Below, piece by piece: positions 25,701 to 64,000 of a stretch of DNA of 64,000 nucleotides (the first letter of the stretch is position 1; each line of letters begins with the position of its first letter). The stretch covers positions 62,001 to 126,000 of the forward strand of contig JAUIAH010000017.1 in assembly GCA_030425385.1 (NCBI GenBank). The letters run 5' to 3'. Position numbers and translations under genes: made by a program. Below the pieces are notes generated by a model. That model was not told the origin of the DNA. It was given only the letters and a program-made list of their open reading frames with translations, and made no database searches. The DNA is from Verrucomicrobiia bacterium (lineage in GTDB: Bacteria > Verrucomicrobiota > Verrucomicrobiia > Verrucomicrobiales > DEV007).

Positions 25701-26786
25701 CTTCCCCACGAAGGGATAGTAGGCTCCTTCGGGAATTGCATTGGTGGCTTGACGTCCGTCAATGTGTACGAAGAAGCGACCGACGGGAGCGGGTTGAAGC
25801 CGGAAATTCCCCATCTCATCAGTGATGGCGAAGAGTTCGTCTTCCATGCTGTCCACGGTGATGCGCACGCCCGCGAGTGGTTCGTTGACGAAGGTTGTGC
25901 CGTCCGCTCCGGTTTGGGGATTGGAAGCAAAGACACGTCCACAGACCGCGGTGTCTGGCAGTGTGGTGAGACTTAAGGTGTCGAAGTCAATGGTGGTCTC
26001 GCCACCTGGAATGCCATCGCCATCCGCATCGATCTCTTCGCCGTCTTCGTCCTGAATCGATCCCCCTCGAAAGGTCACCCGCACACGGGCGGCGGCGGGT
26101 AAAGGATCCTCATAGAAGAGGGTGGCGACTTTGCGGTCTGCCGAAAGGGTGGTTCTGCCAGGGAGGCGACGCCCAGCAAATTCAGCGAAGAATTGATCGG
26201 CACGAATGGTTGTGCCGACGGCGAGGGCGCGATCAAATCGAAGGACGGTCTCGCGGGTCAGGGCGACGCCGTCTTCGCCATCAAGCGGAGAGCTGGTCAG
26301 CTTGGTGGTGAGGCGCCCGTCGCCTCCTTGCAAGAACTCCTGCAAATGGGTGAGGCCATTGCCATCGGGATCGTCTTGGGCGTCGGCATCATTGAGAGGG
26401 TCGAGAATTCCAGAGCGCTCCAATTCGTAGACATCATCGATCCCGTCCCCGTCAGAATCCAAGGATGCTGTTAGAGGAACTTGGCGTAAGCGATAGAAGA
26501 GTGCTCTGTCAGGAACCGCGGAGGCTTCTTGCAGTGTGCTCGTTCCCCTGGCGCCGAGGGCCATGCCCACCGCTTCGGGGAAGGCTTGGAGATCGCTACT
26601 CCGCTCGAGGATGTAGTAGGCGTCGTTGGTTGAGGGGTAGGTGACACGGACCCGTTGATCGGGACCGCGGCTCACTTCATTAATGGCGAAATCTTGAGCA
26701 AACCCAGGGCAGGCTCCCAAGAAGAGAACAACTGCCAAGGCCCGCACGAGCAGATTCCCTGCGACGGAAACGAATCGATCGAACAT
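19737..26786 (-). CDS. giant secreted multi-domain protein with five ~180-aa TIG-like repeats
   Basis: A 2349-residue protein with a signal peptide (LLVRALAVVLFLGACPGFAQ). In order: a beta domain, a thrombospondin-3 stretch (about 110-150, DSDGDGIDDVYELE), a Big_5-like Ig domain (LTSSPLDGEDGVALTRETVLRF), and carboxypeptidase-like and mixed regions. A helical segment spans about 580-830. A second DxDGDG stretch lies at about 892-935, followed by LVIVD-type propeller repeats (about 935-1240: VADLEAGVSVFNVF, GNASEGVSVFDI). Two more Ig domains follow, then five tandem units of about 180 residues from about 1450 to the end. Each unit carries a TIG/IPT-like TISGTGFAEG...RFG and the near-invariant FSNDGIDIWETGG. 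No C-terminal anchor is visible. It is the last gene after the polysaccharide-export genes on the same strand, so a matrix or adhesin role is plausible. Confidence 0.9.
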   Translation of the reverse strand: MFDRFVSVAGNLLVRALAVVLFLGACPGFAQDFAINEVSRGPDQRVRVTYPSTNDAYYILERSSDLQAFPEAVGMALGARGTSTLQEASAVPDRALFYRLRQVPLTASLDSDGDGIDDVYELERSGILDPLNDADAQDDPDGNGLTHLQEFLQGGDGRLTTKLTSSPLDGEDGVALTRETVLRFDRALAVGTTIRADQFFAEFAGRRLPGRTTLSADRKVATLFYEDPLPAAARVRVTFRGGSIQDEDGEEIDADGDGIPGGETTIDFDTLSLTTLPDTAVCGRVFASNPQTGADGTTFVNEPLAGVRITVDSMEDELFAITDEMGNFRLQPAPVGRFFVHIDGRQATNAIPEGAYYPFVGKTWTSRAQEEVTVGNIYLPLIVEGTLQATSTLTQTEVRFPNAVLQEFPEFDGVRLTVPPDTLFSDDGSRGGSIGIAPVPPDRLPGTLPQGLDLPLVITVQTDGATNFDQPVPVQFPNLPDPKTGRALSPGARTAIWSFNHDTGRWEVAGPATISADGQWAVSDPGTGIRAPGWHGTNPLCRLTGGGLADKQDPCATERALVQTGAVQGFFAAVLAPIEAVPVLGDSVGTVANFLGAALDCWANGGDAGACVTGFVQAGEMSLIASVGGPVGDTITNGLLAADLAVRSAALEDCLIHERKLRELRMRAPALQNRLFEAARAMQDAVTGNPAWSNAGPGGLQARRIVWDDIMDAAADGELTEAEEREIVDDPVRVLPDDLTPTDIEALIDRIQLVITNGLPPNEITTIRQAAETLRDVYEEALADGWRTPFFVQYEWLEDLAREEAQRLRDARPINVRIRFRLINRTTGFVQRGTTSGQGTFDLLVQPGMPYTVEFVHPETGETGVTQFVAPQAGGTIHLPPTAIVPPGTHLDTDGDGLNDQAEETLGTDATNADTDNDGVLDGAELAQGGDPLGGLPVRTGIIASADTPGTAVDIDALNDLVAVADLEAGVSVFNVFTGMDPTIVAQIGTPGSAQSVALDAAHLLVGNASEGVSVFDIRSLPEVTLIHQLDLGNVIAVSASAGTGYAGTESGLLVKLDLRSGAVLDTLNLQGPIHDLRLDADHLYALTPGTLFTIPLTTTFLRLDGRLPVSSAWNTSHGRMRLAVGGGVGYVVHRRGYDTVNTADPTNLQPITTTQTAQFGWKQVAPNGSGLLVTTRSTNQSFDGPHHVWLYDSADPTLTDVPITELPTPGVARAVSLFNGIAYIADHSAGLQVVNYLAFDSQKRPPQITLSSQPSNNEVEERKAMRVTAAVADDVQVRNVEFYVNDEPFLTDGNFPFEIRFITPPRSGETVLRLKARVSDTGGNATWSDELSFTLTPDSTPPEIGNTAPPDGAYVGGLDSLTIGVNEPLDPSTVHADNVVIVRAGPDGRLGTNDDVTLEDFTVGLNADGDQVFLQPNSTLIDDLYQVTLSDQVADLTGNRLGDFFVTTFRKGPLLVTATQGTPTNRYVASANVGQEIFITGADFTTESEVTFATITTGGTVRTRVVPLTNIAADGRSGVAVVPGDAVTGELQLPNTTTITLQIVPVVTGVSNGGPGRQVTISGTGFAEGRSSVRFGNAVVSDRGPFSNDGIDIWQTGGSNNRLDATVPENGSLPYVVVTDGGSTGVAADVTAVLAQASTGTPRLETEASVNIGEIVRIEGKGFTTATRILTEAISTGGTPYIHTIEPATVDPGGTSLTFILPEASRTGMVSLINAAHGQLLQVVPRITSVSGGRGRTTTLSGSGFTEGHATARFGAVDVTDQGPFSNDGIDVWETGGRNNRLVVTVPEDGDLPYEIITEGGSSGRLTDLTQMESASETGTPADGDQDSANVGQMVTLRGEGYREGTTKVTLEAMTTGGTPYITTIDPTFVNEDGTLLRFSVPEEARTGVAAILSGGNGEPLQIVPRVTAISGGRGRSTTLSGTGFVEGFVTARFGALQVVDQGPFSNDGIDIWETGGRNNRLVVTVPEEGDLPYEIITEGGSSGRLSDLTMLSNQSLTGTPSDTNEASANVHQRVTLVGHGYALDTTQVTLEAMTTGGTPYITTIAPETVSPDGTSLTFVVPEEARTGMATILSGGKGARLQIVPRITAINGGRGRSTRFSGTGFIEGFVTARFGESQVIDEGPFSNDGIDIWETGGRNNRLDVTVPEAGRLPYEIITEGGSSGRVTDLTTITGSALTGTPASVGVASGNVGQSLTFQGQHYQNDTFIALEAMTTSGTPYITTVSPDSVSPDGRMLTFTIPENARTGPASILNGGAARFLQIVPTLNSVSSAAPNANALLTGTGFIEGYVSVDFGNATVTDEGPFSNDGIDIWETGGSNNRLGVTVPSAGSAPVRVTTEGGTSEALSP
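19780..22450 (-). repeat. five tandem ~540-bp coding repeats
   Basis: The block encoding FSNDGIDIWETGG recurs at about 19848, 20385, 20925, 21465 and 22002, a period of 537-540 bases (about 180 codons). The middle three copies are the most alike; the outer two are more diverged. The period is a multiple of three, so copy-number change would keep the frame. Confidence 0.9.
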
Positions 26787-45518: not shown

Positions 45519-45926
45519 TCAGTGGATGGGTGAATAATCAGTCGCCTGAAGGAAGGAGGATTCAACTTTCTTTACCAGAGGCCCGTCCTTGCGTGAGGCT
45601 TCAAAAGCGGCCTTCCATTCAGGATCATCGATAAAGCCCTTCCATGCTTTCTCCCGAGCTTCCTTGCTCGGGTAGGCTAAGATGTAGACCAGCGTCTCTG
45701 GTTGATCTTCGGGAGTCCAGTAGCCTATCAGAGACATCCCGTGTTTCACAAACAGCGCATTCGTGTGATTGCGGAAGCGTGCGTGAAGATCCTCAAGCTT
45801 GCCCTCGTGCGTGTGATAGGTTCGCATCTCAAAGACACGGTTGACTGGGCTAGTCGATTCCGTCTCGTGCGCGGACAGAAGAGTGATAGTGGTAAGGAAT
45901 GTTAGAAGGCAAAGTAGCGGTTTCAT
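45519..45926 (-). CDS. exported NIPSNAP family protein
   Basis: The 135-residue protein has a signal peptide (LLCLLTFLTTITLLSA) and the NIPSNAP domain: FEMRTYHTHEGKLEDLHARFRNHTNALFVKHGM, then GYWTPEDQPETLVYILAYPSKEAREKAW. The domain has a dimeric alpha/beta-barrel-like fold; its enzymatic role in bacteria is not known. It is co-oriented with the asparaginase gene (15-base gap) and divergent from the ankyrin lipoprotein. Confidence 0.92.
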   Translation of the reverse strand: MKPLLCLLTFLTTITLLSAHETESTSPVNRVFEMRTYHTHEGKLEDLHARFRNHTNALFVKHGMSLIGYWTPEDQPETLVYILAYPSKEAREKAWKGFIDDPEWKAAFEASRKDGPLVKKVESSFLQATDYSPIH

Positions 45927-46009
45927 TGGTTAAATGGCATGGTTTCTCGAGGATCTTGTCAAGATTTCCCGTGGCAGAGTGGCGTGACCATGCTAGAAGA
46001 CCCAGTGTG

Positions 46010-47623
46010 ATGGTCCACTCAAGCCCCTATCTCCTGCTGCTCGTGTTCATCCTGACGATCGGCGCGTGCCGCGATCCAGAAGAGGCAGCGCTTCATGATC
46101 TTGAGGAAGATGGCTTTGGCTTTGCCGTGAGTGACTTTCATCGTGCCGCTGCCCAGGGGGATGTGGCTGCGGTGGAGAAGTTTCTCAAGGCAGGGATGGC
46201 AGTGGATGTGGAAGGTGAGGACGGTCAAACAGCCTTCCAACGGGCTGCTGCCATGGGAGAGGATGGAATGGTTCGCTATCTTGTCGAGGCCGGGGCGTCG
46301 ACGGACCAACGCCTAGATGGTGGTCGGACCTTGCTCATTGAGATTGCCGGACGCACAGACGGGGACCTGGCCATGCTCGATTTCCTTCTGGAGCATCATG
46401 CCGATGCCAAGGCCATGGATGCGCAGAATCTGACCGCGCTCATGGTGGGGGCGATGGCGGGCAATGTCGATGCCGTCCGGCGCCTTGCCATGCGAGATGT
46501 GCGTTCGCTAGATAAGGCGTTCTTGTTAGCCGCAGCGCAAGGGCACACGCACTGCCTGGAGGCGTTGATCGAATTCGGTGCTTATGTGAACTGCCGCAGC
46601 CACGATGGGCAGACACCTCTCATGTACGCCGCGGGGAAAGGTCATGCAGAGGCTGTGAAACTGTTGTTGCGCCATCACGCGAATCGATTTGCCATGGACG
46701 AGAGCGGTAAGACTGCGAGCGAGCGAGCGGAAGCCGCCTCATACGCTACTCTAGCAGAGATCCTGCGCGACACCTCTGATCTTGTTCCGCCCAAGGTCCC
46801 GGCGAATAATGAGTTTGTGCCCAGCTTGGATGGCCAATTAATCGCCTTTCTGTCAGACGCAGATCCCGAGATTCATGCCGCCGCGATCGAGCCCCACCGG
46901 CCACTTCTCGATCCTTTGAATGGTCCCCCGGAAGAGACGGCAGAAGGTTCGAATGGTGGGAATCCACCTGCCGGAGCCACGGGGACGTCACCCAAGTTGC
47001 CTGTGGGCCGTCGTGCGGACGAGCAAGTGCCTGTCAATACCACTACTGGGGGAGCGCGCGGACGTCCCACGGCAAGTGTGGATGAAGAAACGCAACCCAC
47101 CGCGTCCAACGACCCCGCTTCAGTATCACCCGTCAATGTCGATCTGCCGAAGGAGCTGCGATTGGGCCGTTTCAACGAGCGCTTTGAACCTATCCTCATC
47201 ACCGACGTGACGGACAAACAGGCGAAGGTTCGTCTCCTCCACCGGCCCACTACCGATGCCAATGCCATCGTGATGGTGATGGTGGGAGAGCGCATCCCAG
47301 ACACATCGTATGAAGTGCAGAAGGTGACAAAGCGAGTTCGTCCGGCTAAGGGCGGCGGCACTGTCGATGTTTCAGAGGTGATGGTGCAAGACCGGGTGAG
47401 TCAGGAAGAGCAGCGCTTTGTTAGAGGAACCTTGCCGCGGGATGCCGACACGCACTTGGTCGTGGAAACGCGCCGCTCGCATCAGCGATTTGCCGCACGG
47501 TTAGGCGATGTCTTCACCGTTGCCGAAACCGAAGAGCAGTACGCTGTCTCGGACATTCGTCCGCATCAGCTCGTCGTGCGTAACCTGACTTCAGGGGACG
47601 TCTTGACAATCAATCGCGGGTGA
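46010..47623 (+). CDS. ankyrin-repeat lipoprotein
   Basis: I chose the ATG at 46010 because it opens a lipoprotein leader (YLLLLVFILTIGAC); an earlier in-frame ATG at 45899 would overlap the NIPSNAP start and add an unlikely extension. The 537-residue protein has about six ankyrin repeats (FHRAAAQGDVAAVEKFL, GQTAFQRAAAMGEDGMV, LTALMVGAMAGNVDAV, GQTPLMYAAGKGHAEAV). A Pro/Gly/Thr-rich disordered stretch (about 300-400) follows. The C-terminal beta domain (ARLGDVFTVAETEEQYAVSDIRPHQLVV) is not recognised. It ends 13 bases from the convergent degenerate megasynthase gene. Confidence 0.85.
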   Translation: MVHSSPYLLLLVFILTIGACRDPEEAALHDLEEDGFGFAVSDFHRAAAQGDVAAVEKFLKAGMAVDVEGEDGQTAFQRAAAMGEDGMVRYLVEAGASTDQRLDGGRTLLIEIAGRTDGDLAMLDFLLEHHADAKAMDAQNLTALMVGAMAGNVDAVRRLAMRDVRSLDKAFLLAAAQGHTHCLEALIEFGAYVNCRSHDGQTPLMYAAGKGHAEAVKLLLRHHANRFAMDESGKTASERAEAASYATLAEILRDTSDLVPPKVPANNEFVPSLDGQLIAFLSDADPEIHAAAIEPHRPLLDPLNGPPEETAEGSNGGNPPAGATGTSPKLPVGRRADEQVPVNTTTGGARGRPTASVDEETQPTASNDPASVSPVNVDLPKELRLGRFNERFEPILITDVTDKQAKVRLLHRPTTDANAIVMVMVGERIPDTSYEVQKVTKRVRPAKGGGTVDVSEVMVQDRVSQEEQRFVRGTLPRDADTHLVVETRRSHQRFAARLGDVFTVAETEEQYAVSDIRPHQLVVRNLTSGDVLTINRG

Positions 47624-47636
47624 TGGGCGGTCTGCC

Positions 47637-50600
47637 TTAGGAGAGAATCGTCTCTTTCGGGTGCAGCAGTTTGCCGAGTTCCTTGCCGAGCGAGTGCGGA
47701 GTGAGCTTGGCAATCGAAGCGACCGTGAAGCCCCCTCGCGCAAGTCCGTCCCAACCAAGTTGACGCTTGGTTGCTTGGAGACCTGGCCGCATGAGTGTGA
47801 GGTTTCCTGGATAAGCCCGGGGAACATAATTCCTCACTGCAGGGTGATCCACATCGGGAGCGTCCTCCGCGCAGGGATTGTGAGTGCCTGCTAGGATCAG
47901 TCCATCCATTGGGATCTCCAGATCCACGGCTTGTTGCGCCATTTCATATCCGAGAATGCCGCCTAGTGGTCCACCGCCAATCGTGAGATTCTGTGAGAGT
48001 CCTTCCTCTTGCAGGCGTTCCCAACAGATCGCGGCCGCCTCTTCAATGGTCACCTCCGGCATGAGATCGGCGTGGAGCAAATGAATGGTGTTTCCGTCAG
48101 GAAGCAATTCAGCTGCTTCACGGAGCAAGGCGGATTCTCCATCGCTCATGGCGACAAGCACCAGCGGCGCTTGATCACCGCTGCTGCCGTTGCGAATGCT
48201 TTCCAAATGAGCCGTGACCGTGGGCAGCGTATCAGATTCAAGATCGTCTGTGGCTTCCACGAGAATCCCATCGGCACCCCACGTCGCCTTCATCCCCGTG
48301 CAGAAGAGCTTGCCGGGAGCGTTGGGGAAGGGTGAACGCATCCAGCGAGAGTCCTTCGCCTTAGCAAGAGTTTGAACGAGTGCTAGACCATCGCCGCCCA
48401 CCCAAAGATCGCCAGACATTCCTTGAGGCACGGGTTGGAATGCGTCGTTGAGAACGAAGACTTGAGTGTGTGGAATGGGAAGACCGATCGGCATGGTCTC
48501 CCGTTCAAGGTCTTCTTCGCTAACCGTGTGACTACAGGTGAGGAACGTGTTTTCCAGTGGGCCGTAGCCAACGGTAAGACTCACAGGCAAGTCCTGGAGG
48601 ACGCGCGTGGTGACGGAAGGATCTGGGAGTTCTCCTTTGATGATGATCTGACGGATCCAGGAGAGATCGTCAGCGTGTTCGTCCATCAAGGCGGCGAGCG
48701 TTGTTCCAGATAATACCAGCGAACTCACTCGTTGAGTGGCGATTGCTTCCGCAAGAGCCTCGGTGGAGTGAGAACCTCTCGGAATAGCTAAGACACCACC
48801 ATTGAGCAAGGGGCCCCAGACTTCTAACAAACACTGATCGCTATCCGTTTGGCCTCCAAGCAAGAAGATCTCGTGAGCGCCAATGGTTGCGTAGTCCGTA
48901 TTCTTAACCAGCCGCACGAGAGCGCGGTGGGGGAGACGCACCGGTTCGGGTGAGTCGTTGTCCCAATGATAGAGAACCACAGCGGCATCGTCCCGTGTGG
49001 TTTGCGATCGGAGGTTTGCGATCCCTTTCGCGTCGGGGTCGTAGGTGACGGCATCGATGTCCAAGGTGGGAATCGTGGAGCCGGGTGACCATGCTGCCCA
49101 ATCCTGACGCTTTCCTTGAACGAGCAATAGCGCGGGATTGGCAGCCTTGAGCCTATCCAGATCGGGTTCTCGAGAACGATCAAGTGGGAGGTAGGCCGCG
49201 CCGACCTTGAGAACGGCAAGCCACGTTTCAATCATGCGTGGCGACGCCTGCATGAGGACACCGACAGTGTCGCCAGGTTGGATGCCTTTATCAATCAACG
49301 CCTGAGCCATCTCATCGCTTCGGGCGTTCAGCTCTCCGTAAGTGACCTTCTCCTGCCCATGGCGAATGGCGATGCGACCGGGCATCTTCGTAGCAAGCGT
49401 TTCAAAGAGGCGGTGAACGGGTTCATGCGGAGGTGCCCCCGTAGTGGTCACGTTCCGATGCACCACCAAAGTCTCGTAGACTTCATCAGAGACCAATCGT
49501 AGGTCTGCTAGGGTGGCGTCAGAGGCTGCCGCGATAAGATTCTGAAGGAGAACCACAAACGAATCGATCCAGCGTTCAATCGTTTGGGAGTCAAAGCGAT
49601 TGGCATCGTAGTCGCATAGGATTTGATCTCGAGTCACTTGCCAATGCAGGGGAAGCTTGGCTGGCGGGGATGAGAGTCCCAAGCCGCAGCCGGGCCCGCA
49701 AGCGGCTAGCCATTTCTGAAAGCGGTCCTGATTGCTGAGGGCATGCGCATTGGCCACTTCCTTGGCCGCCAAGACAGCGGCGAGAGCATCCCTGAGCGTG
49801 AGATGCCGCTCAGAGAAGACGAGGGGCAGAGCTTGGCCATCAATCTCACTAAGGAAGGTGACAGACTCTTTCCCGGACCACGCGCTAAAGACGCTATGGA
49901 AAGCCACGCAAAGGAGATCGTCGCGGTCACCACCCCAGGCTTCCGCCTGCTTTCCTAAGGCGTCGAGCAACGTCTTCGGCACCTGACGACAAATCGTCTT
50001 GGGAGTGAGTGGTCCCTTCCCGTGACGGTCTTGAGGCCAATGGCGCTTCGCATTGCGAAGAGTCTCTGTCCAGTAGAGCAAGTGTTGTTCATCTTGCTTG
50101 CCGGCCATTCGCGCAATGTAAGAGTCGGGATGCTTGAGAAAGAACCCGCGATCTTGGAGAGCATTGACGCTTTCATCAAACCGGGAGACGAACTGATCCA
50201 GATCGTCATCGGAGTGGGCGAGCGTGGTCGTATTCGGGCGACTCGTCGAGAGGCGAAGCCCATGATAGAGCGCCTCCGCAGGAAGTAACCATGCCTGTTC
50301 CAAATCTTTGGTCACCTGAATCGTAAAGAGGCATCCAAGGCTGCGGATCGCTAGCGGCGCTTCCATTTGCAACGAACTTTCTTGCAGAGCGGTTATTGCC
50401 TGTTGGGTGCGGCTACGCCATTGACGCAAGTCCTTCTGCGTGGTCTGCTGAATGCTCTTGATAGTGGCCTGCACGGCCACAAGTGGCAGGCTGTGATGCA
50501 GGGGGGGCGCACTAGCAATGAGGCGATCTTGGCTAGAAGAGCGCCACCCATCACTGCGGGCCAGAATGCCGACCGGAAGGCCATCTGACAAGGACTCTCC

Positions 50601-53600
50601 ATAAATGGCAAAGTCCGGGCGGATGGAGGCGAGACTGCGGCCATCTTCTTCATCCCAACGGAAGGCGGTCTCGCGTTCATCGAGGATGAGCGCCATGCCG
50701 CAGCGTTCCGTTTCTTCCCGGATGACATCGAGGATCTCTGCCCGTTGAGCGGGTTCCAGATCGATCAATGAGAGGGGATCGACGAGGATGGCGGCCAACT
50801 CGTGACGTCGACGAAAGATCTGTGAAGCGAGGCGCGGGTCCTCCGGATGCAGACAGACGCGACCGTTGACGAAGCGCTTCTCTTGCCCAGAAATCACGCC
50901 GATGCCAGGGCGGCCGCCCCGGTCTTGAGCAAGTGATAGGGCAAGATCAAGAGCGTCTTTCGATGATTGGACAAAGGTGATCTTGTCAGTGAAGAAGTCA
51001 TCCCGAAGCGCATCAATGATCCCGAGTTTGAGGGAGGACATGCTTTCGGGGGATTCGTCGGCGATGTGGTCGCGGATGGCGCGAACGACTGCTTCAGATT
51101 GGTAGCCCAACCAATGCGTGAGGAGGGAGTCGGAGACATCGATGTAGGCATTGTCATCAGCATCCCAAACACGGCTCCCCTGTGCGCGCCGAGTGATGAT
51201 TTCAGGGCGTTCGCGCAGCATGCCTCCCGTGTGTGCGCCCAAACGCTCCCGCTCTTCCTGGCTCTTGGGCGCTTGAGAACGGCTGCGTTCGAGTGTCTCT
51301 TCAAAGTAGTCTCCGGTAGCATCGACAAGGCTGAGGTCGCGTTCGAGAGGCTCTGTCGCTTGCGGAAAGACCGCTGAACGAAGGTCGTCTAACGCTTTCT
51401 CAATGACTTCGAAGCGCTCCTGCAACTGTGGAGGATTGCCGCTGGCGATGGATTGGTCGTTGTCTGAAGAGGGCTCAGTGTCTGTTTCAAGCATCGGGAA
51501 TGGGTCATTAGCAGTATCCTCAACCTCATCACGTGGATCGGCATCGGTATGCAGAGCGAGGAGACCAGAGGCAGCTGCGGCTGCAGTGGTGCTCTGGGAA
51601 TCTGTGGGAAGCTCCGCCACGACCTCTGCCGACTTAGGTTCGTCATCCAGGGAATCAGCGAGAAGCTCCATCGCAGCCCGGGCACCTGAGGACGTGATGA
51701 CAGGTTTGTTCTCCGCCTCGGGAGCGTCGGCATCGTTGTCAGGGGTCTCATGAGATGACTCGGAGCTGATGGGGGAAGCGGGCTCCTCATCGACCTGATG
51801 AAAGGTGTGCCAATCGATTGCCAGACCGTTCTCCCAGAGCTTGCCAGCGATTTCAGCGGTGTGAAGGACTTCTCTCTGCGGGCCTCGGGGAGATCCAGAG
51901 AAAGCTTCAAAGGCACCATCGGGTAACGATTGTGTGAGGGAAGTCCCGGGACCAATTTCCAAGGAGATGCCTTGGAAGGCTTCACCGAGATGCTGCAACG
52001 CTTCCTGAACGCGAAGCGGATGCGATAAGTGTGAGGCCCAGTAGTTGGGAGAACAGCAGGTTTCTTCACTGATCCAATCGCCAGTAACTCCAGAGAGGAA
52101 AGGGAGGCGAGGTTCGCGGAGGTCAACGTATTCGAGCACTTGCTCAAAGGAGGCTTCCATGGCCTGCATGGCGGCCGATTGCCGGGCATGTGCAAAGGGT
52201 AGCCGTGTGTGAGGGACGGATCGCGAGTCGAGGAGTTCGATCAATTCTGCAATCGCTTCCGAGTCGCCCGTGATGATCGACTCGTGGTCAGATTGATAGA
52301 CGGCCACGTCCACGCGTTGCTTGAGGAAAGGCTTGATCTCACGCGCGTTCGCCTCAATGCGCAAAGTCATGCCAGGCGTGCCCATGGATCGGATCAACTC
52401 GGATCGTTTCGCGAGGAGAGCGAGGACTTCTTCCAATGTGAAGACACCGCTCAAACAGGCAGCGACGTATTCCCCCGTGCCTTGACCGAAACAGGCGGCC
52501 GGTTGCAGACCCCACGACATCCATAGACGCGCCTGCGCGAAGGTGGAGATAAACAACGCAGAATCGGCGTGCACAGACTGGGCCGGATTGGAGTCGTTCA
52601 ACAAGGTCTCACGGATATCGTGCCCCGTGACTTGCTCATGAACCTTGCTGCACCAATCGACCACTTCGCGGTAGACCTCTTCGGTCTCATAAAGACCTTT
52701 GCCGTGATAGGAGTGGAGTGCGAAAGTGTCAGGAAAGAGAAACACTAAGCTTGGTGCAGGGGTGCGCACGGCCGTGGGCACTACCGTTTGGTGACCATTT
52801 GCGAGATCGTGAATGTCTTGAATGACAAGGCTGGAGCGGAACGCACTGGCAGGACGCGAGGTCGCAACGATTGCTGCCAATTCCGGTAAGTCCTCACGGG
52901 ATTGCAAGGCGAACTGATCTGCCAGGGTCGCCCATTCAGAGAGGACGGATTCCTTGGTATCGGAAGAAACGACAATCAATGCAGGCCGTTCGATGGGTTC
53001 ATTGAGCAGTTGGCGTGCTTCCTCTTCGGCGAGGCGTTTCTTCTCAGCAGCGGCAGCCTCAGCTTTCTGTTGTTCTTCTGCGAGGCGCCTGGCTTCAGCT
53101 TCAGCTTCAGCGGCCTGACGTGCTGCCTCCTCTGCCTCATGCTTTGCTTTGGCGTCGGCCTCAGCTTTGGCGGCTGCCTTCCGTGCTTCCTCTTCTGCCG
53201 CACGTTGGGCCTCTTCGTCTGCTTTGCGCTTGGCTTCCTCCTCAGCGCGCTGGCGAGCTTCTTCTGCAAGGCGCAGCGATTCGGACTCTGCCTCTTCCTC
53301 GGGTGACGGATGTGCGCGAACGGTCACGCGCTGTGTTACTGCTAGATCATCTTCCTCATCATCCACGGAGGATAGCATGAGGCGTTTGACGGTGCTGGCG
53401 AGACCTTCGATCGTCGCCCGTTCGTGGAGGTGTCGGCTGAATGACCACGTGAAGCTGAGGACACCGTCTTCCAAACAGGTATCCAAGGCGACGGGATGCA
53501 CGCGCAGAGCCCGCGGGCTGCGCAATGGACCGACGTCTTCGGAGGCGAGTTCAAAGTAGGGATTGTTCGCCAGTGCTTCGTGCATGCCGCTACGATGTTG

Positions 53601-56480
53601 ATAGCGGATCCACGGGCGCAACTCAGGGCGGGTTGTGTTCCCCAAACCCTCTAGTTTCTCTAGGACGGTCTGTTGGCGACGAATCGTGGTGAGAGTGACG
53701 TCTTGCTGTTCCGCGGGCACGAGCGCGATCAAGCCACGGCGATCGCACCACCCTAGCATATGCGTGGTCTTGTCTGAAGGAGCGCGTCCTGACCAGAACC
53801 ATTCTGCTAGGGTTGGCGATCCGCCCTTCACATGGATGGCGTGAGTGAGAGCCTTGAGGACGCTTGCTTCCAATCCGTTGGGACATTGCTGGATCAACGA
53901 AGCCGTTTCGGATGCGGTCAATGAGAGGGAGAGCGTTTCGCGGCTCCCTTCGATATTGCGGCCTGGGTTCTCAAAGTCGCTCGGAATCCCGTCTGGTGCT
54001 AGTTTGGCCGACTCAAGGCCATCAAGATATCGCCCTCGTTCGGCATCGTTCTCCCGCTGAGTAGCGATCCATTCCGCATAGGTGGACTGTGGTTCCGGGA
54101 GACTGGGTGTGAGCCCTTTCTGCAAGGTGAGACAGGCGTTCGCCAGATCGTGGATGAGGATTTGCCAGGAAGCTTGATCCGTGACCAGTTGATGAGCGAC
54201 TAGCAGAAGTCTGGGATGACGTTCAGGGCCGAGGTCAAAGTAGACCGCTCGTAGGAGGATTCCCTCTCTGAGATTGAGACGGCCTTGCGTCGCTGCAGCA
54301 ATGGTTTCGACCTGCATGTCGATACCCTCTTCTGAAGCACGAGAGAGATCTACCATTCGGAGTAAGTCGTCGTCTGGAAGAAGGCTGGCGACTTGTTCCC
54401 AGCCCTCGTCGCCTTGGCTGAAACGCAATTGCAAGACGGGATGATGGCCGCGAATGCATTCGAGTCCTTTGCGGATAAGGCTAGGATCCAGGCGCTCTTT
54501 CAAGCGTAGCATGAATGCTTGATTCCAGTGATCTCGGCCTTCAATGTCTTGCTGGAAGAACCAGTTTTGAATGGAACTGAGGGAGAATGGATCGCTCGGC
54601 AGGGACTTGGGCGGCAGCGTCACCCGGGCCACTTCAGTGATCAGTTTCGTCTCGTCTTCATCCGTAGCAACTACCGTGAAAGGCGAGGCCGCAATCTTTG
54701 TCGTCTCGGCCTCGGCTTCGGAGTCAACTGAAGAGATAGGTTCAGGATCAATGTCAGGGAGAGTGTCCTGAATATAGCCATCTAACGCCATGGTGCGCCA
54801 GCGGTTGGCGATCTCTTCGAGCGTGTCCGAGTGAGCGGTGAATTCGCCAACCTCTCCTTGTGTGAGTTCCGACGATTGCGTTTCAAAGGGCGCTTGTTCT
54901 GCGAGAGCTGTCGCGACTTTGATAGGGATCTGGTAAACACTCCAGTCGTCCTCAGGGAGATCTTGTTGGTAACTCTCAATGGTCGCGGACAAGAACGATT
55001 CCGTGGGCGTGTTTGCGGGCGTCCTGAGAAATGGGAGATCGATGTCGAGGCAATTGTGCTGGGTGGCAATCGTGCCGAGCTCCGAAAGCATGCGAGATTC
55101 GATCCCCAATCCCAGGCAGTCATCGTCCAGGAGGAAATTGTGGACGAGGAGCGTGCGCTTGACGCGTTCAAACATGATCATCCCAACGACTCCATGATCA
55201 GCGAAAGTGTCATGGGCGCGGAACAGCGTGGCGTAGTGGTAGGGACGGCCTAACCAAGTCTTGACTTCGCTGGCCGAGAAACGGCGGGAAGTCGCATTGA
55301 GAAGTGACGATGATTGCGTCAATTCAGCCATCCGCTCGTGAGCTTCAGGAGAAGGAGACGTCTGACTGATTTGGATGCCGATGAGTTCAAGGTAGTGGGA
55401 GAAACTACCGGATTCCCGTCGCTTGAGACGCCGCTTGGCCTGTTCCTGGTCCTTGCGATTGCGTGTCGCCCCCATGTCCTTCGTAGAGAGATCGCGGTCG
55501 AAACACCACAGATGCTCCAGGAAACTGGGCACTTCCTCGCCAGTGCTAGGATACCGGATGCTAAGAACCTCTGGACAACCGGTGCGAACCGCGTGGACAT
55601 GTCGCGTGTCTTTGCTGAGAAAGGCCACGCGACTCAGGGGAATCCCGACTTCTTTGGCCAGCACCTTGACTGCCTCAGCGGGCGAGTTGGAGAACGCCTG
55701 CCAGGCCATGATGTCCTCTTTCTTGAGGATCATGTCAGGATGATCCTGAGCGGTCTGTTCCGCAGCCCGAGTATCGGTTTCTGTGAGGACTCCGAGGATG
55801 AGACCCGCTTCACGCTGGCCTGCGAGAGCCCGTTGGAAATGGCGATGAGGCGCACGAATGGCAGGAGCGTGCGTCACCTCTGGAGATCCTTCCCACAGCG
55901 TGTCACGATCATGAATGATGATCAGCTTGGTGCTTGGTTGATAGATCTGATAGAGTTCCCGAGCGGCCATCATGGCAAGACCGGGAAAGAGAGGGACCGT
56001 CTTGTCGTCTCCCGTGGCAGCGGCACCCATCCACTCAGGCGATCGACAAATGTTGATGTGCTCATGCTTGCTGAGGGAGGCAAAGAGTTGTCCCTCAACA
56101 TGGCGAGCGTGCTTAGCCGCTTCGGGATCGGTGGACGTCGATGGAGGCGCGAGCATCACGATGACAGACCGATCGTTCTCCTCACATACTTCTAGCAATC
56201 GTCTTGAGAAGGCTTGAGCAGCGACGTCCACAGCTGAAGCACCAGCCTCCGTCGCTTCGTAGTGAATCCAATCACTTGGCCGAACCACAAGGAAGCTCAC
56301 CATGTCTCCAGCGGCCTCCACCGCCCCGCTATCGACCAGTGCCACCGGATCCGCCACAGCATCTCGGATCTCCACCGAATGTTTCCACGCGAAACGGTCA
56401 CACCAGGCCCGGAGTGCACCATCGAGAGGCTTGATATCAAAGGTTCCAGTAAGAAGGATCTTCGGATTCGGAGCAGTCAT
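47637..56480 (-). CDS. intact 2947-aa hybrid PKS/NRPS-like protein with all catalytic motifs degenerate
   Basis: Domain order by eye, with residue positions approximate. FkbH-like (about 65-530): the Asp nucleophile motif DxDNTLW reads HDRDTLW, and the later DD reads SK. Condensation (about 630-1055): HHxxxDG reads HQLVTDQ. Ala/Glu/Arg-rich coiled coil (about 1057-1157). Acyltransferase (about 1240-1530): GHSxGE reads GQGTGE and the catalytic His (AFHS) reads ARQS. Class III aminotransferase (about 1720-2110): the PLP lysine GK reads GES. C-terminal half of a condensation domain (about 2125-2340). Adenylation (about 2355-2740): the P-loop reads HWDNDSPEP, GYGPTE reads GYGPLE, TGD reads TGM, and the C-terminal subdomain is missing. 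Thioesterase (to the end): GxSxG reads GGPLGG. No carrier domain is visible. The frame is open for 8.8 kb. Thiotemplate synthesis is not credible; a scaffold or binding role is the inference. Confidence 0.85.
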   Translation of the reverse strand: MTAPNPKILLTGTFDIKPLDGALRAWCDRFAWKHSVEIRDAVADPVALVDSGAVEAAGDMVSFLVVRPSDWIHYEATEAGASAVDVAAQAFSRRLLEVCEENDRSVIVMLAPPSTSTDPEAAKHARHVEGQLFASLSKHEHINICRSPEWMGAAATGDDKTVPLFPGLAMMAARELYQIYQPSTKLIIIHDRDTLWEGSPEVTHAPAIRAPHRHFQRALAGQREAGLILGVLTETDTRAAEQTAQDHPDMILKKEDIMAWQAFSNSPAEAVKVLAKEVGIPLSRVAFLSKDTRHVHAVRTGCPEVLSIRYPSTGEEVPSFLEHLWCFDRDLSTKDMGATRNRKDQEQAKRRLKRRESGSFSHYLELIGIQISQTSPSPEAHERMAELTQSSSLLNATSRRFSASEVKTWLGRPYHYATLFRAHDTFADHGVVGMIMFERVKRTLLVHNFLLDDDCLGLGIESRMLSELGTIATQHNCLDIDLPFLRTPANTPTESFLSATIESYQQDLPEDDWSVYQIPIKVATALAEQAPFETQSSELTQGEVGEFTAHSDTLEEIANRWRTMALDGYIQDTLPDIDPEPISSVDSEAEAETTKIAASPFTVVATDEDETKLITEVARVTLPPKSLPSDPFSLSSIQNWFFQQDIEGRDHWNQAFMLRLKERLDPSLIRKGLECIRGHHPVLQLRFSQGDEGWEQVASLLPDDDLLRMVDLSRASEEGIDMQVETIAAATQGRLNLREGILLRAVYFDLGPERHPRLLLVAHQLVTDQASWQILIHDLANACLTLQKGLTPSLPEPQSTYAEWIATQRENDAERGRYLDGLESAKLAPDGIPSDFENPGRNIEGSRETLSLSLTASETASLIQQCPNGLEASVLKALTHAIHVKGGSPTLAEWFWSGRAPSDKTTHMLGWCDRRGLIALVPAEQQDVTLTTIRRQQTVLEKLEGLGNTTRPELRPWIRYQHRSGMHEALANNPYFELASEDVGPLRSPRALRVHPVALDTCLEDGVLSFTWSFSRHLHERATIEGLASTVKRLMLSSVDDEEDDLAVTQRVTVRAHPSPEEEAESESLRLAEEARQRAEEEAKRKADEEAQRAAEEEARKAAAKAEADAKAKHEAEEAARQAAEAEAEARRLAEEQQKAEAAAAEKKRLAEEEARQLLNEPIERPALIVVSSDTKESVLSEWATLADQFALQSREDLPELAAIVATSRPASAFRSSLVIQDIHDLANGHQTVVPTAVRTPAPSLVFLFPDTFALHSYHGKGLYETEEVYREVVDWCSKVHEQVTGHDIRETLLNDSNPAQSVHADSALFISTFAQARLWMSWGLQPAACFGQGTGEYVAACLSGVFTLEEVLALLAKRSELIRSMGTPGMTLRIEANAREIKPFLKQRVDVAVYQSDHESIITGDSEAIAELIELLDSRSVPHTRLPFAHARQSAAMQAMEASFEQVLEYVDLREPRLPFLSGVTGDWISEETCCSPNYWASHLSHPLRVQEALQHLGEAFQGISLEIGPGTSLTQSLPDGAFEAFSGSPRGPQREVLHTAEIAGKLWENGLAIDWHTFHQVDEEPASPISSESSHETPDNDADAPEAENKPVITSSGARAAMELLADSLDDEPKSAEVVAELPTDSQSTTAAAAASGLLALHTDADPRDEVEDTANDPFPMLETDTEPSSDNDQSIASGNPPQLQERFEVIEKALDDLRSAVFPQATEPLERDLSLVDATGDYFEETLERSRSQAPKSQEERERLGAHTGGMLRERPEIITRRAQGSRVWDADDNAYIDVSDSLLTHWLGYQSEAVVRAIRDHIADESPESMSSLKLGIIDALRDDFFTDKITFVQSSKDALDLALSLAQDRGGRPGIGVISGQEKRFVNGRVCLHPEDPRLASQIFRRRHELAAILVDPLSLIDLEPAQRAEILDVIREETERCGMALILDERETAFRWDEEDGRSLASIRPDFAIYGESLSDGLPVGILARSDGWRSSSQDRLIASAPPLHHSLPLVAVQATIKSIQQTTQKDLRQWRSRTQQAITALQESSLQMEAPLAIRSLGCLFTIQVTKDLEQAWLLPAEALYHGLRLSTSRPNTTTLAHSDDDLDQFVSRFDESVNALQDRGFFLKHPDSYIARMAGKQDEQHLLYWTETLRNAKRHWPQDRHGKGPLTPKTICRQVPKTLLDALGKQAEAWGGDRDDLLCVAFHSVFSAWSGKESVTFLSEIDGQALPLVFSERHLTLRDALAAVLAAKEVANAHALSNQDRFQKWLAACGPGCGLGLSSPPAKLPLHWQVTRDQILCDYDANRFDSQTIERWIDSFVVLLQNLIAAASDATLADLRLVSDEVYETLVVHRNVTTTGAPPHEPVHRLFETLATKMPGRIAIRHGQEKVTYGELNARSDEMAQALIDKGIQPGDTVGVLMQASPRMIETWLAVLKVGAAYLPLDRSREPDLDRLKAANPALLLVQGKRQDWAAWSPGSTIPTLDIDAVTYDPDAKGIANLRSQTTRDDAAVVLYHWDNDSPEPVRLPHRALVRLVKNTDYATIGAHEIFLLGGQTDSDQCLLEVWGPLLNGGVLAIPRGSHSTEALAEAIATQRVSSLVLSGTTLAALMDEHADDLSWIRQIIIKGELPDPSVTTRVLQDLPVSLTVGYGPLENTFLTCSHTVSEEDLERETMPIGLPIPHTQVFVLNDAFQPVPQGMSGDLWVGGDGLALVQTLAKAKDSRWMRSPFPNAPGKLFCTGMKATWGADGILVEATDDLESDTLPTVTAHLESIRNGSSGDQAPLVLVAMSDGESALLREAAELLPDGNTIHLLHADLMPEVTIEEAAAICWERLQEEGLSQNLTIGGGPLGGILGYEMAQQAVDLEIPMDGLILAGTHNPCAEDAPDVDHPAVRNYVPRAYPGNLTLMRPGLQATKRQLGWDGLARGGFTVASIAKLTPHSLGKELGKLLHPKETILS

Positions 56481-56771: not shown

Positions 56772-58508
56772 CTACTTCACGATCGAGACGCGATCGCCAA
56801 CTTTCGACTCCTTGAAGAAGAATTTCGCCGTGGAGTTCGCGAGACGAACACACCCGTGTGAGGCGGGATAACCAGGCAGCGCGCCCGTGTGAAACCCCAT
56901 GGCAGTGCAACTGAACCGTTGGAAATAGGGCATCTTAGCCGAGTTGTAGAGGTTCGAGTAATGCATGCGTGACTTGTCTGTGATCACATACTCGCCAGGG
57001 ATGGTAGGATTCGACCGTCGACCAGAGGAAATCGAACCGGTGCGCACTTTCTCTCCGTCTTTGTAGTAGGTCACCCGTTGTTTGGACAAGTCGATCACGA
57101 AACGGCGACGTTGCTCGTGATCTTCGTGCGGAACGCCGATGAGTATTTGTTGGATCCTCACATTCTTGCGTTTGGCCGCCAGTTGGATTGGGTAGACTTT
57201 TCGGGGGGCCGTCGGCGCAAATCGATTGGCTCCCAGTTCGATTAGTTTGAGAAGCACCTCCTCTTGATCGAGGCAGACGGCACACATGAGAGGAGTGATG
57301 TCGTGCGTGTTGCGCAGATAGAAATCTAACAGAGCACTCTTAACCAATTTGCGGAAAGTATCTGAAACAGGATGCTCAAGAAAGGTATCCGGTTCAGGAG
57401 CTTTCTCATGAGTGATTAGGGCCATGGTGGTCGCGGTGTCTCCTAACACGATGGCCAGGGGAATGGCTGCTTGCCCTTCCTTGCCGGGTGCTAACATGTC
57501 AGCGCCATGGTCGATGAAGAATCGCGCGAGGTCTGCTTTCTTCTCGCGGACGGCGAACGTCAGTGGGGTCTCGCCATCAGACCGCGCCTCATTCACATCG
57601 GCTCCTTTCTTCACCAAGGTGTGAATGACGGCCTCATCACCTTGCGGGAGGGCGACCCAAAGCGTGCCGGACACGTCTTCTACGCGCGTGAGTAGGGCTT
57701 GGGCGCCTGAGGTGAATCGCTGCTCTAGCGCATGACGAAGGGAGTGCTTCCCTGACGGATCGGCAGCATCAATGTCGGCACCAAATACCAAGAGTTGCTC
57801 TAACAGGGATCCCGCATCGGCATCTTCCAACCCGATGGTTTGGAAATGCTGGCAGAGGTAGTTCAAGAGCGGCTGTCCTTGGGGCGAAGACGTGTTGGCA
57901 GAAGCTCCTGCTTTCAGCAGTTCAGTGACCAGAGGTGCATTTCCAGACTGCAAGGCTAGAAAGATGGGTGTCTCACCGGCTGAGTTGGCAATGTTAGGAT
58001 CGGCTTTCGCTTCGAGGAGTGCGGCCATGGTCGGCGCATCTGCTCGCTTGACGGCATCGATCAATGCCGGTTCACCAGAATCAAAGAGGGTGTCCGGAGA
58101 AGCGCCGTGCTCTAGCAAATACTTTGCGAGTGCGAGATTGTGTTTCTCTATCGCCAACTGAAGAGCAGGGGCATCCTTGGCGTTCCTCGCATTGACATCA
58201 ATGTCGAAGTCCAGGAGGGCGGTGGCGGTGACCCAGCGCTCATCCATGATCGCTTGATGAATCGGTGCGTTTCCTTCTGAGAGGGCCTCCCGCATGGAGA
58301 TGCCAGCGCGATGTAACGTGGACAGGGTCGCCGCATCATCGCGTCCGATGGCGGCGAAGGCTTCAGATTCCGTGGGAGAAATTCCCAATTTCTCTAGCTC
58401 TCGCAAAGCCACCTGGGGGTCCTGAAACCACCCAGTGTGATAGAGATAGCCTGCCCCGCAGCCTGCTAATAGCAAGAGAATGAGGAGAATCTTGAGGGCA
58501 CGCTTCAT
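56772..58508 (-). CDS. ankyrin-repeat lipoprotein with C-terminal L,D-transpeptidase (YkuD)
   Basis: From the ATG at 58508 the protein has 578 residues and a lipoprotein-like leader (LKILLILLLLAGCGAG). About ten ankyrin repeats span about 45-440 (NAPIHQAIMDERWVTATALL, GETPIFLALQSGNAPLVTELL, GETPLTFAVREKKADLARFF). The last ~125 residues are a YkuD domain: FVIDLSKQRVTYYKDGEKV, SSGRRSNPTIPGEY, CTAMGFHTG and SHGCVRLAN, with the catalytic Cys and His in place. YkuD enzymes make 3-3 cross-links in peptidoglycan or attach proteins to it. An ankyrin array tethered to a wall-modifying enzyme is unusual. A longer in-frame ATG at 58556 is less likely because it precedes the leader. Confidence 0.9.
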   Translation of the reverse strand: MKRALKILLILLLLAGCGAGYLYHTGWFQDPQVALRELEKLGISPTESEAFAAIGRDDAATLSTLHRAGISMREALSEGNAPIHQAIMDERWVTATALLDFDIDVNARNAKDAPALQLAIEKHNLALAKYLLEHGASPDTLFDSGEPALIDAVKRADAPTMAALLEAKADPNIANSAGETPIFLALQSGNAPLVTELLKAGASANTSSPQGQPLLNYLCQHFQTIGLEDADAGSLLEQLLVFGADIDAADPSGKHSLRHALEQRFTSGAQALLTRVEDVSGTLWVALPQGDEAVIHTLVKKGADVNEARSDGETPLTFAVREKKADLARFFIDHGADMLAPGKEGQAAIPLAIVLGDTATTMALITHEKAPEPDTFLEHPVSDTFRKLVKSALLDFYLRNTHDITPLMCAVCLDQEEVLLKLIELGANRFAPTAPRKVYPIQLAAKRKNVRIQQILIGVPHEDHEQRRRFVIDLSKQRVTYYKDGEKVRTGSISSGRRSNPTIPGEYVITDKSRMHYSNLYNSAKMPYFQRFSCTAMGFHTGALPGYPASHGCVRLANSTAKFFFKESKVGDRVSIVK

Positions 58509-58581
58509 GGTAGGGGAGGCTTGATGGAAGAGAAGCCACCTTTGATCGACTTGCAAGCGCTAGCGGACCAGAGCGGTTTTG

Positions 58582-61470: not shown

Positions 61471-63285
61471 CTAAGAATCACTTTCCGCCGGGGCCAGGGC
61501 TACCAGTCGGCGGTTTCCCTGGTCCGCCACACGAAATCGGCCTCGCGAATCGACGGTGATACCCCATGGCGTGCTGAATTGGCCGATAGCGCTGCCCTGA
61601 CGGCCATAGGTGCCCAGCAGGTTGCCGGAAAGGTCGCACTGTAGGATCCGGCCCGCGCCGTACTCGATCAGGACAAGGTGATGGTGAGGACTCATCACCA
61701 GGTCGTAGGGCAAATGCAAGGGCACATGCTGACCATCGTGTGTGAGTGGGAGGACTCTATCAAAGCGCCCATCGTCGTGAAAGATCTGCAAACGATTGTT
61801 CACAGCGTCCGCGATGTAGAGGCGATCAGCATGCCAGACGATTCCAGATGGCCGCTGAAAGGCACCAGGCTCCGTGCCGAACGTTCCGAAACTGAGGATG
61901 TGTTCGCCTGTGAGGGTGAACTTTTGGATGCGATCGTTCGAACCATATTCGCCGACGTAGAGATGACCCTTGGGATCCTTGGTAATGGCGACAGGATAGA
62001 TGAATTCTCCAGGACCACGGCCACTCTTACCAAAGCGTTGTTTCTCCTCACCCTCAGGACTGAATGTGATGATTTGGTGATAGTGCGTATCACAGACGAC
62101 GATGTCTCCCTGATCTAAGACCACCACGCCTTCAGGGCGCCCTACGGAAATGTCAGGCATGCGCCAGCGACGGATGACCTTGCCTTGAGCGTCAAAGACA
62201 AGCACCCTCCCAGCATCGTCCAGTGCCACAATCTCATCGTGAGGACCCACTGCCACACTTCGTGGCGCGGGAAGCTTGGGACCATCAATGGGTAGTCGCC
62301 AAGCGTTGACTTCTGCCATTGTGAGAGTAGGCCACTCCTCGGTGCGCTCACATCCCATGCCAAAAGTGATCAGGAGGATCCCTAACCAACGCAGCATCGC
62401 CCGCCATCCGTCACCGGTGGGCAGGGTGCGGCCGCGATGGCTGAACGTCCGTTTCGCGCCCGAGGCTGCGTCTTCGAGGGTGGACTCCATGACAGGACCA
62501 TAACACCTGCGGCCATGAAACACCAAGGGTCCTGCTTCGTGTGGTTGGAGGTCGAGGCGTTCAGGGCGAATGCTAGGTCCCGCCTCGCTCGCCGCTTCGC
62601 CAAGCCATCGTTTCCGCTCGGCAGCATCAGGTATCCAGTTGGTATGCCCGAGCACCTGCGCCAGTGTTTCCGTTTCGGGCGAATGATAGAGCGCATCGAC
62701 GGAGCCCACGAAAGCTATCCGGCCATCCGCAAGGCAACAGACCTGCTCGGCCTGAGAGAGCACGGTTTCAGCTTCGTGTGAAGCGAAGACGAGGGAACGT
62801 CCCTCCAACCATCGGCGGATGACGGCCCAGCAGGCGCGGCGCTGAGGGCCTTCCAAATGTGCCAGAGGTTCATCCATGATCAGCCATGAGGCCTCTGTAG
62901 CCAGCGCACGTGCGACTGCCAAGCGGGTTTGTTGTCCCAACGAAATGGCTTCTGGTCGTGAATGGGTGAGGCCCTCAAGTCCGAGATCTCTGAGAAGGCG
63001 TTCATTGATCGATCCGGCAACGGCTTCTAGGTGCTCGCCGACAGTGTATCCTGGCCAAAGACCCAGACCCGAAGGGACCCACCCCATCGTGGCACCTGAA
63101 GTGTCCATGGTCCCCGCCAGTGGCTCTTCAAAGCCGACGAGGACATTCAACAGGGAAGTCTTTCCTGCCCCAGAGGCTCCCATCACCGCGGTGATTCCAG
63201 GTGTAAACGTTAGGCTAATAGCATCGAGACGCGGCCGCGAAGTGCCAGATAGACGAATGGCTTCCAGGGTGATGGGGGGGCTCAT
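61471..63285 (-). CDS. ABC transporter ATPase fused to an NHL-repeat lipoprotein
   Basis: The ATG at 63285 overlaps the permease stop by four bases (ATGA); a longer frame to 63573 overlaps the permease in another frame and is rejected. Residues about 1-230 are an ABC ATPase: GASGAGKTS (Walker A, about 36-44), ISLGQQTRLAVARAL (signature, unusual), WLIMDEP (Walker B) and FASHEA (switch His). Near residue 297, in frame, is a lipoprotein-type leader (MLRWLGILLITFGMGC), then NHL propeller repeats to the end (SGRGPGEFIYPVAITKDP, TEPGAFQRPSGIVWHADR, SAIGQFSTPWGITVDS). Either the two proteins are truly fused or translation restarts at the internal ATG at 62397, which has GGA upstream. Confidence 0.82.
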   Translation of the reverse strand: MSPPITLEAIRLSGTSRPRLDAISLTFTPGITAVMGASGAGKTSLLNVLVGFEEPLAGTMDTSGATMGWVPSGLGLWPGYTVGEHLEAVAGSINERLLRDLGLEGLTHSRPEAISLGQQTRLAVARALATEASWLIMDEPLAHLEGPQRRACWAVIRRWLEGRSLVFASHEAETVLSQAEQVCCLADGRIAFVGSVDALYHSPETETLAQVLGHTNWIPDAAERKRWLGEAASEAGPSIRPERLDLQPHEAGPLVFHGRRCYGPVMESTLEDAASGAKRTFSHRGRTLPTGDGWRAMLRWLGILLITFGMGCERTEEWPTLTMAEVNAWRLPIDGPKLPAPRSVAVGPHDEIVALDDAGRVLVFDAQGKVIRRWRMPDISVGRPEGVVVLDQGDIVVCDTHYHQIITFSPEGEEKQRFGKSGRGPGEFIYPVAITKDPKGHLYVGEYGSNDRIQKFTLTGEHILSFGTFGTEPGAFQRPSGIVWHADRLYIADAVNNRLQIFHDDGRFDRVLPLTHDGQHVPLHLPYDLVMSPHHHLVLIEYGAGRILQCDLSGNLLGTYGRQGSAIGQFSTPWGITVDSRGRFRVADQGNRRLVALAPAESDS

Positions 63286-64000
63286 CGTGCCAAACGCGTG
63301 GTGGTGAGGAAATAGCCTAACACCGTGACAAGGCCGAGAAGGAGAAATGGGACAGCCACAATGACGACAACATAGGCAGATAACATGGTGTCGCGACCGT
63401 AGTGCATCAAGTTGTAGAGTCGCACCATCACGGGCGTCATTGAGGTGGGTGCGAGGATCGCGGACACCGTCACTTCGAAATAGGCTAGGGCAAACCCCGT
63501 GGCCCACACAGCGAGATGCGGGGCGCGATAGGTCGACCAGTAGGCGATGCTCCGTCCTGACAGACGTCCACACCAGGCGCTTTCGGAGCGTTCCCGTTGC
63601 CGGGCGAGGGCAAGGAGAGCGCTGATGATGGGAAAAAGGAGACAGGTGAGACCAAGCACGAGGGGTAGGGGGCGCTCTCGAAGGCCAGTAGGAACGATTG
63701 CAAGGAGACTTAAGCTAAGTAGCAGCGACCCTAGCAAGCCTGCGGAAACGAGAAGGTATCCCCATAAACGGAAACGAACAGTCCAGCGGCGGGCAAGGAG
63801 GTAGGTTAGGGTCGCAGCAACGGCCGCCACTAGCAAACTCTGCCTCACCTCTGCATGCATGGAGAAGGCTTGGGGCAAGCGATGGAGGCCGTGGAAGGCC
63901 TCGGACCCTACCAAGCCGATAGGGATGAACGTGATGATGGCACTAGCAAAGAACGCATAGGCAACGGAACGACGTGAGGTGAACGGGCGGGCCTTGCCTG
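63282..64000 (-). CDS. ABC transporter permease (iron/thiamine FbpB-type), 5' end outside window
   Basis: The frame runs off the right edge without a start, so the N-terminus is missing. At least six hydrophobic segments are visible (FFASAIITFIPIGLVG, LLVAAVAATLTYLLA, LLVSAGLLGSLLLSLSLLAIV, and others). The cytoplasmic EAA-like loop reads GRSIAYWSTYRAPHLAVWATGFALAYFEVTVSAIL, and MTPVMVRLYNLMHYGRDT matches the FbpB/ThiP group of binding-protein-dependent permeases. It overlaps the ATPase start by four bases and forms one transporter with it. The substrate-binding protein would lie to the right. A TTG at 63914 is an internal codon, not the start. Confidence 0.85.
   Translation of the reverse strand, partial: GKARPFTSRRSVAYAFFASAIITFIPIGLVGSEAFHGLHRLPQAFSMHAEVRQSLLVAAVAATLTYLLARRWTVRFRLWGYLLVSAGLLGSLLLSLSLLAIVPTGLRERPLPLVLGLTCLLFPIISALLALARQRERSESAWCGRLSGRSIAYWSTYRAPHLAVWATGFALAYFEVTVSAILAPTSMTPVMVRLYNLMHYGRDTMLSAYVVVIVAVPFLLLGLVTVLGYFLTTTRLAR

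Follow-up and report, generated by a model that had tools for sequence, protein, structure and literature searches.

A verrucomicrobial genome carries an intact gene for a 2947-residue protein with the domains of an FkbH-type megasynthase, in which every recognisable catalytic domain is dead, and the same dead state recurs in three genomes. We regard it as quite probable that the protein is a pseudoenzyme retained from a live megasynthase and working as a non-catalytic binding platform, scaffold or regulatory partner. It also seems reasonably likely that an entire megasynthase was stripped of catalysis and carriers in a shared ancestor and that several species have since preserved it as a non-catalytic protein of roughly 320 kDa with a binding or scaffolding role. 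Here "live" denotes a homologue with intact motifs, G000 is the genome of the analysed DNA (8.0 Mb, 74 contigs), and the window is the whole 64,000-nucleotide stretch under analysis.

As the initial annotation had it, the gene is a single open frame on the minus strand with no internal stop; a promoter scan returned weak consensus matches only. Pfam and NCBIfam place AMP-binding, condensation-superfamily, acyltransferase (AT), class-III aminotransferase and FkbH domains on the protein, with scores well above chance and far below those of the live homologue. The full order is FkbH, epimerization (E), AT, aminotransferase, truncated condensation (C), adenylation (A) and thioesterase-like (TE; Table 1). 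The second of these, residues 632-1055, had been named a condensation domain and has to be renamed: its best solved relatives are stretches of PvdL, TycA and GrsA that bear E domains, and its C-terminal part matches TIGR01720. It occupies the position of the ketosynthase (KS) in the live homologue, and no KS on the dead protein is matched by Pfam. The actual condensation remnant, which lacks its N-terminal half, follows the aminotransferase and precedes the adenylation core, an arrangement shared with the live homologue. Searches for the PF00550 carrier (PP-binding) domain gave no match in the dead protein or its orthologues (E up to 10 / 0.1).

Table 1. Features of the pseudo-megasynthase locus in window coordinates.
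Feature	Position	Strand	Basis
Pseudo-megasynthase gene, 2947 codons plus stop	47637..56480	-	Open frame; orthologues; selection
N-terminal region, residues 1-160, before the HAD part in FkbH-type proteins	56001..56480	-	Low-depth AlphaFold2 model alpha/beta, pLDDT mostly 60-87; start codon position kept in orthologues
Dead FkbH, HAD-like and GNAT-like lobes, residues 161-540	54861..56000	-	TIGR01686; alignment; Foldseek; conservation
Dead epimerization (E) domain, residues 632-1055	53316..54587	-	PvdL/TycA/GrsA relatives; TIGR01720
Ala/Glu-rich charged helical linker, residues 1056-1160	53001..53315	-	Sequence; codon test
KS-AT linker remnant and dead acyltransferase, residues 1161-1585	51726..53000	-	Pfam PF00698; KS-AT linker models match G002 orthologue
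Dead class-III aminotransferase, residues 1736-2120	50121..51275	-	Pfam PF00202; alignment
N-truncated condensation remnant, residues 2121-2290	49611..50120	-	Position as in live homologue; weak Pfam C-terminal match in G002 orthologue
Dead adenylation core, residues 2291-2745	48246..49610	-	Pfam PF00501; alignment; Foldseek A-core matches (weak model)
Dead thioesterase-like domain, residues 2746-2947	47640..48245	-	Alignment; Foldseek
Ankyrin-repeat lipoprotein-like gene, tail-to-tail with the dead gene	45899..47623	+	Syntenic neighbour in 3/3 genomes; not proposed as a functional part

The motif changes first read by eye in the FkbH, AT, aminotransferase, A and TE domains are upheld by per-domain multiple alignments against 11-13 live homologues, with the catalytic-residue lists taken from general knowledge of each enzyme family. 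In the acyltransferase, GHSxGE has become GQGTGE (His-Ser to Gln-Gly) and AFHS has become ARQS (His to Gln). The aminotransferase carries Glu in place of its PLP lysine and has lost the DYHGNFDE loop. The adenylation core has no P-loop, its TSGSTGxPK being wholly replaced; GYGPTE has Leu for Thr, TGD reads TGM, the C-terminal subdomain is absent together with its lysine, and no carrier follows downstream. TSGSTGxPK, GHSxGE and AFHS are gone from all three dead proteins. The thioesterase has Pro for its serine (GGPLGG), with the lid and catalytic His deleted, and in the E domain HHxxxDG has become HQLVTDQ (His to Gln) and the EGHGRE motif is gone.

The usual task of an FkbH protein is to place glyceryl from 1,3-bisphosphoglycerate onto an ACP (PMC7489565). 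The dead protein has lost the HAD acids as well as the ACP. Loss of the FkbH nucleophile, as originally claimed, stands for D30/D32, now His and Arg (HDRDTLW, residues 190-196), and for the later DD, now SK (LSKD replaces DDN); it needs amending in that an invariant D-x-D survives one residue later (HDxD), shifted rather than erased. None of the three dead proteins retains the second acid pair or the SCR cysteine, and the GNAT-type phosphate-binding loop, SCRxLGKGVE in live proteins, is broken in each of them by loss of its Arg and Cys. Across DxDxT, the later acid pair and the SCR Cys, none of 15 cells is kept in the aligned register, and the TIGR01686 score is 105 against a cutoff of 147. 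Multiple alignment rules out that catalytic residues were misaligned by eye; FkbH alone has an alternative register, the HDxD, and there the second acid pair is lost all the same.

Taken over the three dead proteins, 11 of 82 named catalytic or cofactor cells (13%) are kept, as against 458 of 1129 other live-invariant cells (41%; Fisher 2.6e-7, to be read as a contrast rather than a strict p-value since cells are not independent). The 11 survivors are the AT Arg, the aminotransferase Asp, part of the A-domain GYGPTE and TGD, and the first His and the Asp of HHxxxDG. A few persisting ligand-contact residues (the AT Arg, the aminotransferase Asp and the shifted FkbH D-x-D) would be compatible with some remaining ligand binding or with a new activity. 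As a functional megasynthase the protein fails throughout: it has no carrier and no intact KS or C, and its A and AT core motifs are gone. What it does have are the marks of a pseudoenzyme, namely a homologous fold whose catalytic residues are lost and retention by selection.

Two orthologues are equally dead, lacking the same catalytic residues, often with the same replacements, so the possibility raised at the outset, intact orthologues beside a single broken copy, does not apply. A contig scan with the single protein found no orthologue; a profile scan found both. One, in Verrucomicrobiaceae bacterium HS5BWF_bin.44 (G001; JAACDM010000069.1), is full-length at 2945 residues and 44% identity. 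The other, in Verrucomicrobiales bacterium PL25a_bin.108 (G002), lies on two contig ends at 40-42% identity, with its N half on JANQJH010000211.1; from where the pieces break we infer that they are one gene. It lacks the E and TE parts, leaving the E domain in two of three orthologues. In the genus's fourth genome (G003), contig ends flank both sides of the locus, and the absence of the dead gene there is uninformative. Profile searches across the order (387 genomes) and the phylum (388 genomes, evenly drawn) yielded no fourth member, the next best non-member scoring 216 bits against at least 1065 bits for members; the sample thus comprises three members from a single genus, of which two are metagenome-assembled. 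Three independent genomes rule out a sequencing or assembly artefact, and private decay of a single copy is ruled out because the orthologues are equally dead and share replacements.

The ankyrin gene is tail-to-tail with the dead gene in all three genomes, and the order asparaginase, ankyrin gene, dead gene is common to G000 and G001. We claim no functional link: the ankyrin family occurs in 40 of 74 family genomes, and the dead gene was found in this genus only. The ankyrin protein has a conserved C-terminal domain of ~165 residues without a Pfam match. Just upstream of the dead gene, a 594-residue protein (window 56772-58556, minus strand) carries ankyrin repeats and, at its C-terminus, an L,D-transpeptidase (YkuD) domain; the G001 locus carries FloA/NfeD genes in its place. 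Elsewhere in the window, a 2349-residue protein (19737-26786, minus strand) with a single recognised domain, Big_5 Ig-like, is probably a large surface or secreted protein, and one frame (61471-63573, minus strand) fuses an ABC-transporter ATPase domain to NHL beta-propeller repeats.

A live homologue is encoded in the same genome (L016; G000:C35:346500-362500). It has 3616 residues, all motifs intact, and the order FkbH-ACP-KS-AT-ACP-aminotransferase-C-A-PCP-TE, with one KS and three carriers by Pfam. Motifs are likewise intact in its orthologues from G001 and G003 and in about ten other homologues within the order, and G002 holds fragments of a live homologue. In three genomes the live megasynthase (L016, L037, L038) lies tail-to-tail with a PspA/IM30-like gene, near a uracil-DNA glycosylase; a second megasynthase of ~4000 residues has a similar length in many family genomes, which suggests a conserved product in the family. 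Dead and live proteins share 20-35% identity by domain. In FkbH, AT, aminotransferase and A trees the three dead proteins form one clade with 100% support and a long stem, and the dead A domains fall among verrucomicrobial terminal A domains. At 130 positions live-invariant residues are lost in all three dead proteins, with the same replacement throughout at 32 of the 130. The named catalytic sites follow this pattern too: His-Ser to Gln-Gly and His to Gln in AT, Asp to His and Asp to Ser in FkbH, and PLP Lys to Glu. These shared replacements indicate that death is ancestral and that G000 and G001 diverged after it.

Coexistence of the two proteins raises a specific form of the preferred explanation, in which the dead protein is a prozyme-like regulatory partner that binds, titrates or activates its live paralogue. 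A dead paralogue that activates a live one is reported for the trypanosome AdoMetDC prozyme (PMC5201418); here the dead protein keeps the domain order of the live homologue apart from the KS/E exchange, and the live homologue is present in G000 and G001, with the fragments in G002. However, the dead and live genes lie on different contigs, the part removed is the KS, through which such synthases usually homodimerise, and many family members carry the live synthase alone, without the dead gene. We consider this partnership a tentative proposal, possible but somewhat improbable.

Conservation along the dead protein bears on a different alternative, that one module has acquired a new activity, likeliest the GNAT-like FkbH half or an altered aminotransferase or AT shell, and that the rest is structural. 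Across the three dead proteins, 66% of residues 401-450, in FkbH, are invariant, compared with about 30% elsewhere, and the most conserved stretch is the GNAT-like lobe (412-451, 479-484). An AlphaFold2 model of residues 1-607 from three sequences reached a pLDDT of 59, and Foldseek matched it best in the PDB to 3slr, an FkbH-like phosphatase structure, followed by GNATs for the C-terminal lobe. The A-TE model from two sequences reached a pLDDT of 44, its usable part being the TE core (~465-575 of the segment); with this poor model, A cores and thioesterases still ranked first. The folds are probably kept, for which the models, held at low to medium confidence, offer support rather than proof. 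The GNAT matches, the invariant HDxD in place of DxDxT, the kept aminotransferase Asp and AT Arg, and the reported capacity of catalytic residues to migrate in pseudoenzymes (PMC10211241) all speak for a new activity. Against it stand the broken SCRxLGKGVE loop, the loss of the second HAD acid pair, the missing carriers and the loss of most cofactor-site residues, and we judge it distinctly unlikely.

Selection on the gene was assessed with codon models. Along the G000-G001 path, omega = 1 is rejected both for the gene as a whole (likelihood ratio 942) and in every folded domain (31 to 227); the main charged linker is indistinguishable from neutral (0.2) and a second linker is borderline (6.7). 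Saturation of dS makes the omega estimates unreliable as values, but the possibility raised at the outset, dN/dS near 1, is not borne out. The early argument that neutral decay would have broken the frame proved right in direction: a simple neutral simulation run to the observed divergence yields about 60-100 stops in each lineage, and none is observed, while 37 indel events between two orthologues all keep the frame. The evolutionary rate of the dead gene is about double that of the live homologue (dN G000-G001 0.57 vs 0.25), and one orthologue lacks E and TE, so parts of the dead protein are dispensable. The rate, those missing domains and the neutral-looking linker are also what a still undisrupted, decaying pseudogene would show, yet with neutrality rejected in every folded domain, the frame kept through every indel and the same dead residues shared, that reading is strongly disfavoured and most improbable. 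Together, the alignments and codon tests establish, at the sequence level, loss of catalytic residues with retention by selection.

For the retained, non-catalytic protein that we favour, the ancestor would have been a live FkbH-ACP-KS-AT-ACP-aminotransferase-C-A-PCP-TE megasynthase of the kind still found in the same genomes. The sequences show that the KS, all carriers, the A C-subdomain and nearly every catalytic residue were lost in a common ancestor of at least three species, and the codon tests show that purifying selection has kept the whole protein since then. With carriers and active sites gone, assembly-line chemistry is impossible by its known mechanism, so the most likely job is non-catalytic; a binding, scaffolding or regulatory role is what we infer by elimination. 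The folded shells could form a large binding platform for a live megasynthase or its tailoring enzymes, much as the glycopeptide X-domain recruits P450s, or for a small ligand, and the conserved GNAT-like half of FkbH (residues about 401-485) would be the first candidate interface.

Known systems resemble this protein in part. In the live verrucomicrobial FkbH megasynthases, homologous FkbH, AT, aminotransferase, C, A and TE domains follow one another as they do here, and the dead protein keeps a KS-AT linker remnant, but in the live ones all motifs are intact and the KS and three carriers are present. The X-domain of glycopeptide-antibiotic NRPSs is an inactive condensation-type domain that recruits Oxy P450s (PMC5238595), and so exemplifies a dead NRPS domain retained to recruit proteins; it is, however, a single dead domain beside a carrier in a working synthetase, whereas here every domain is dead and there is no carrier. 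Nor does our protein look X-domain-like in detail, having an E-type domain and no PCP, with no P450 among the neighbours scanned. Human FASN contains pseudo-KR and pseudo-methyltransferase domains (PMC10258763), likewise dead domains kept in a type I megasynthase, but embedded in an active enzyme, whereas the dead protein has nothing recognisably active. The AdoMetDC prozyme (PMC5201418) is also a conserved dead paralogue that coexists with a live one, but it is a small single enzyme with a proven allosteric role, whereas the dead protein has seven domains and a putative partner role. Single dead domains are thus known, and we found no precedent for a whole dead megasynthase in the papers searched, a set that mostly excludes subscription papers; the initial statement that no family of this kind is described agrees with that search.

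Known pseudoenzymes concern individual domains, and dead domains also occur inside working megasynthases; a whole assembly line that is dead in every domain yet under selection is undescribed in the papers searched. If the protein is a scaffold or regulator, megasynthase shells would be re-usable as protein platforms. Genome-mining tools that call biosynthetic clusters from their domains would count such genes as biosynthetic although they are not. Since these genomes also encode a live homologue, the question can be tested directly.
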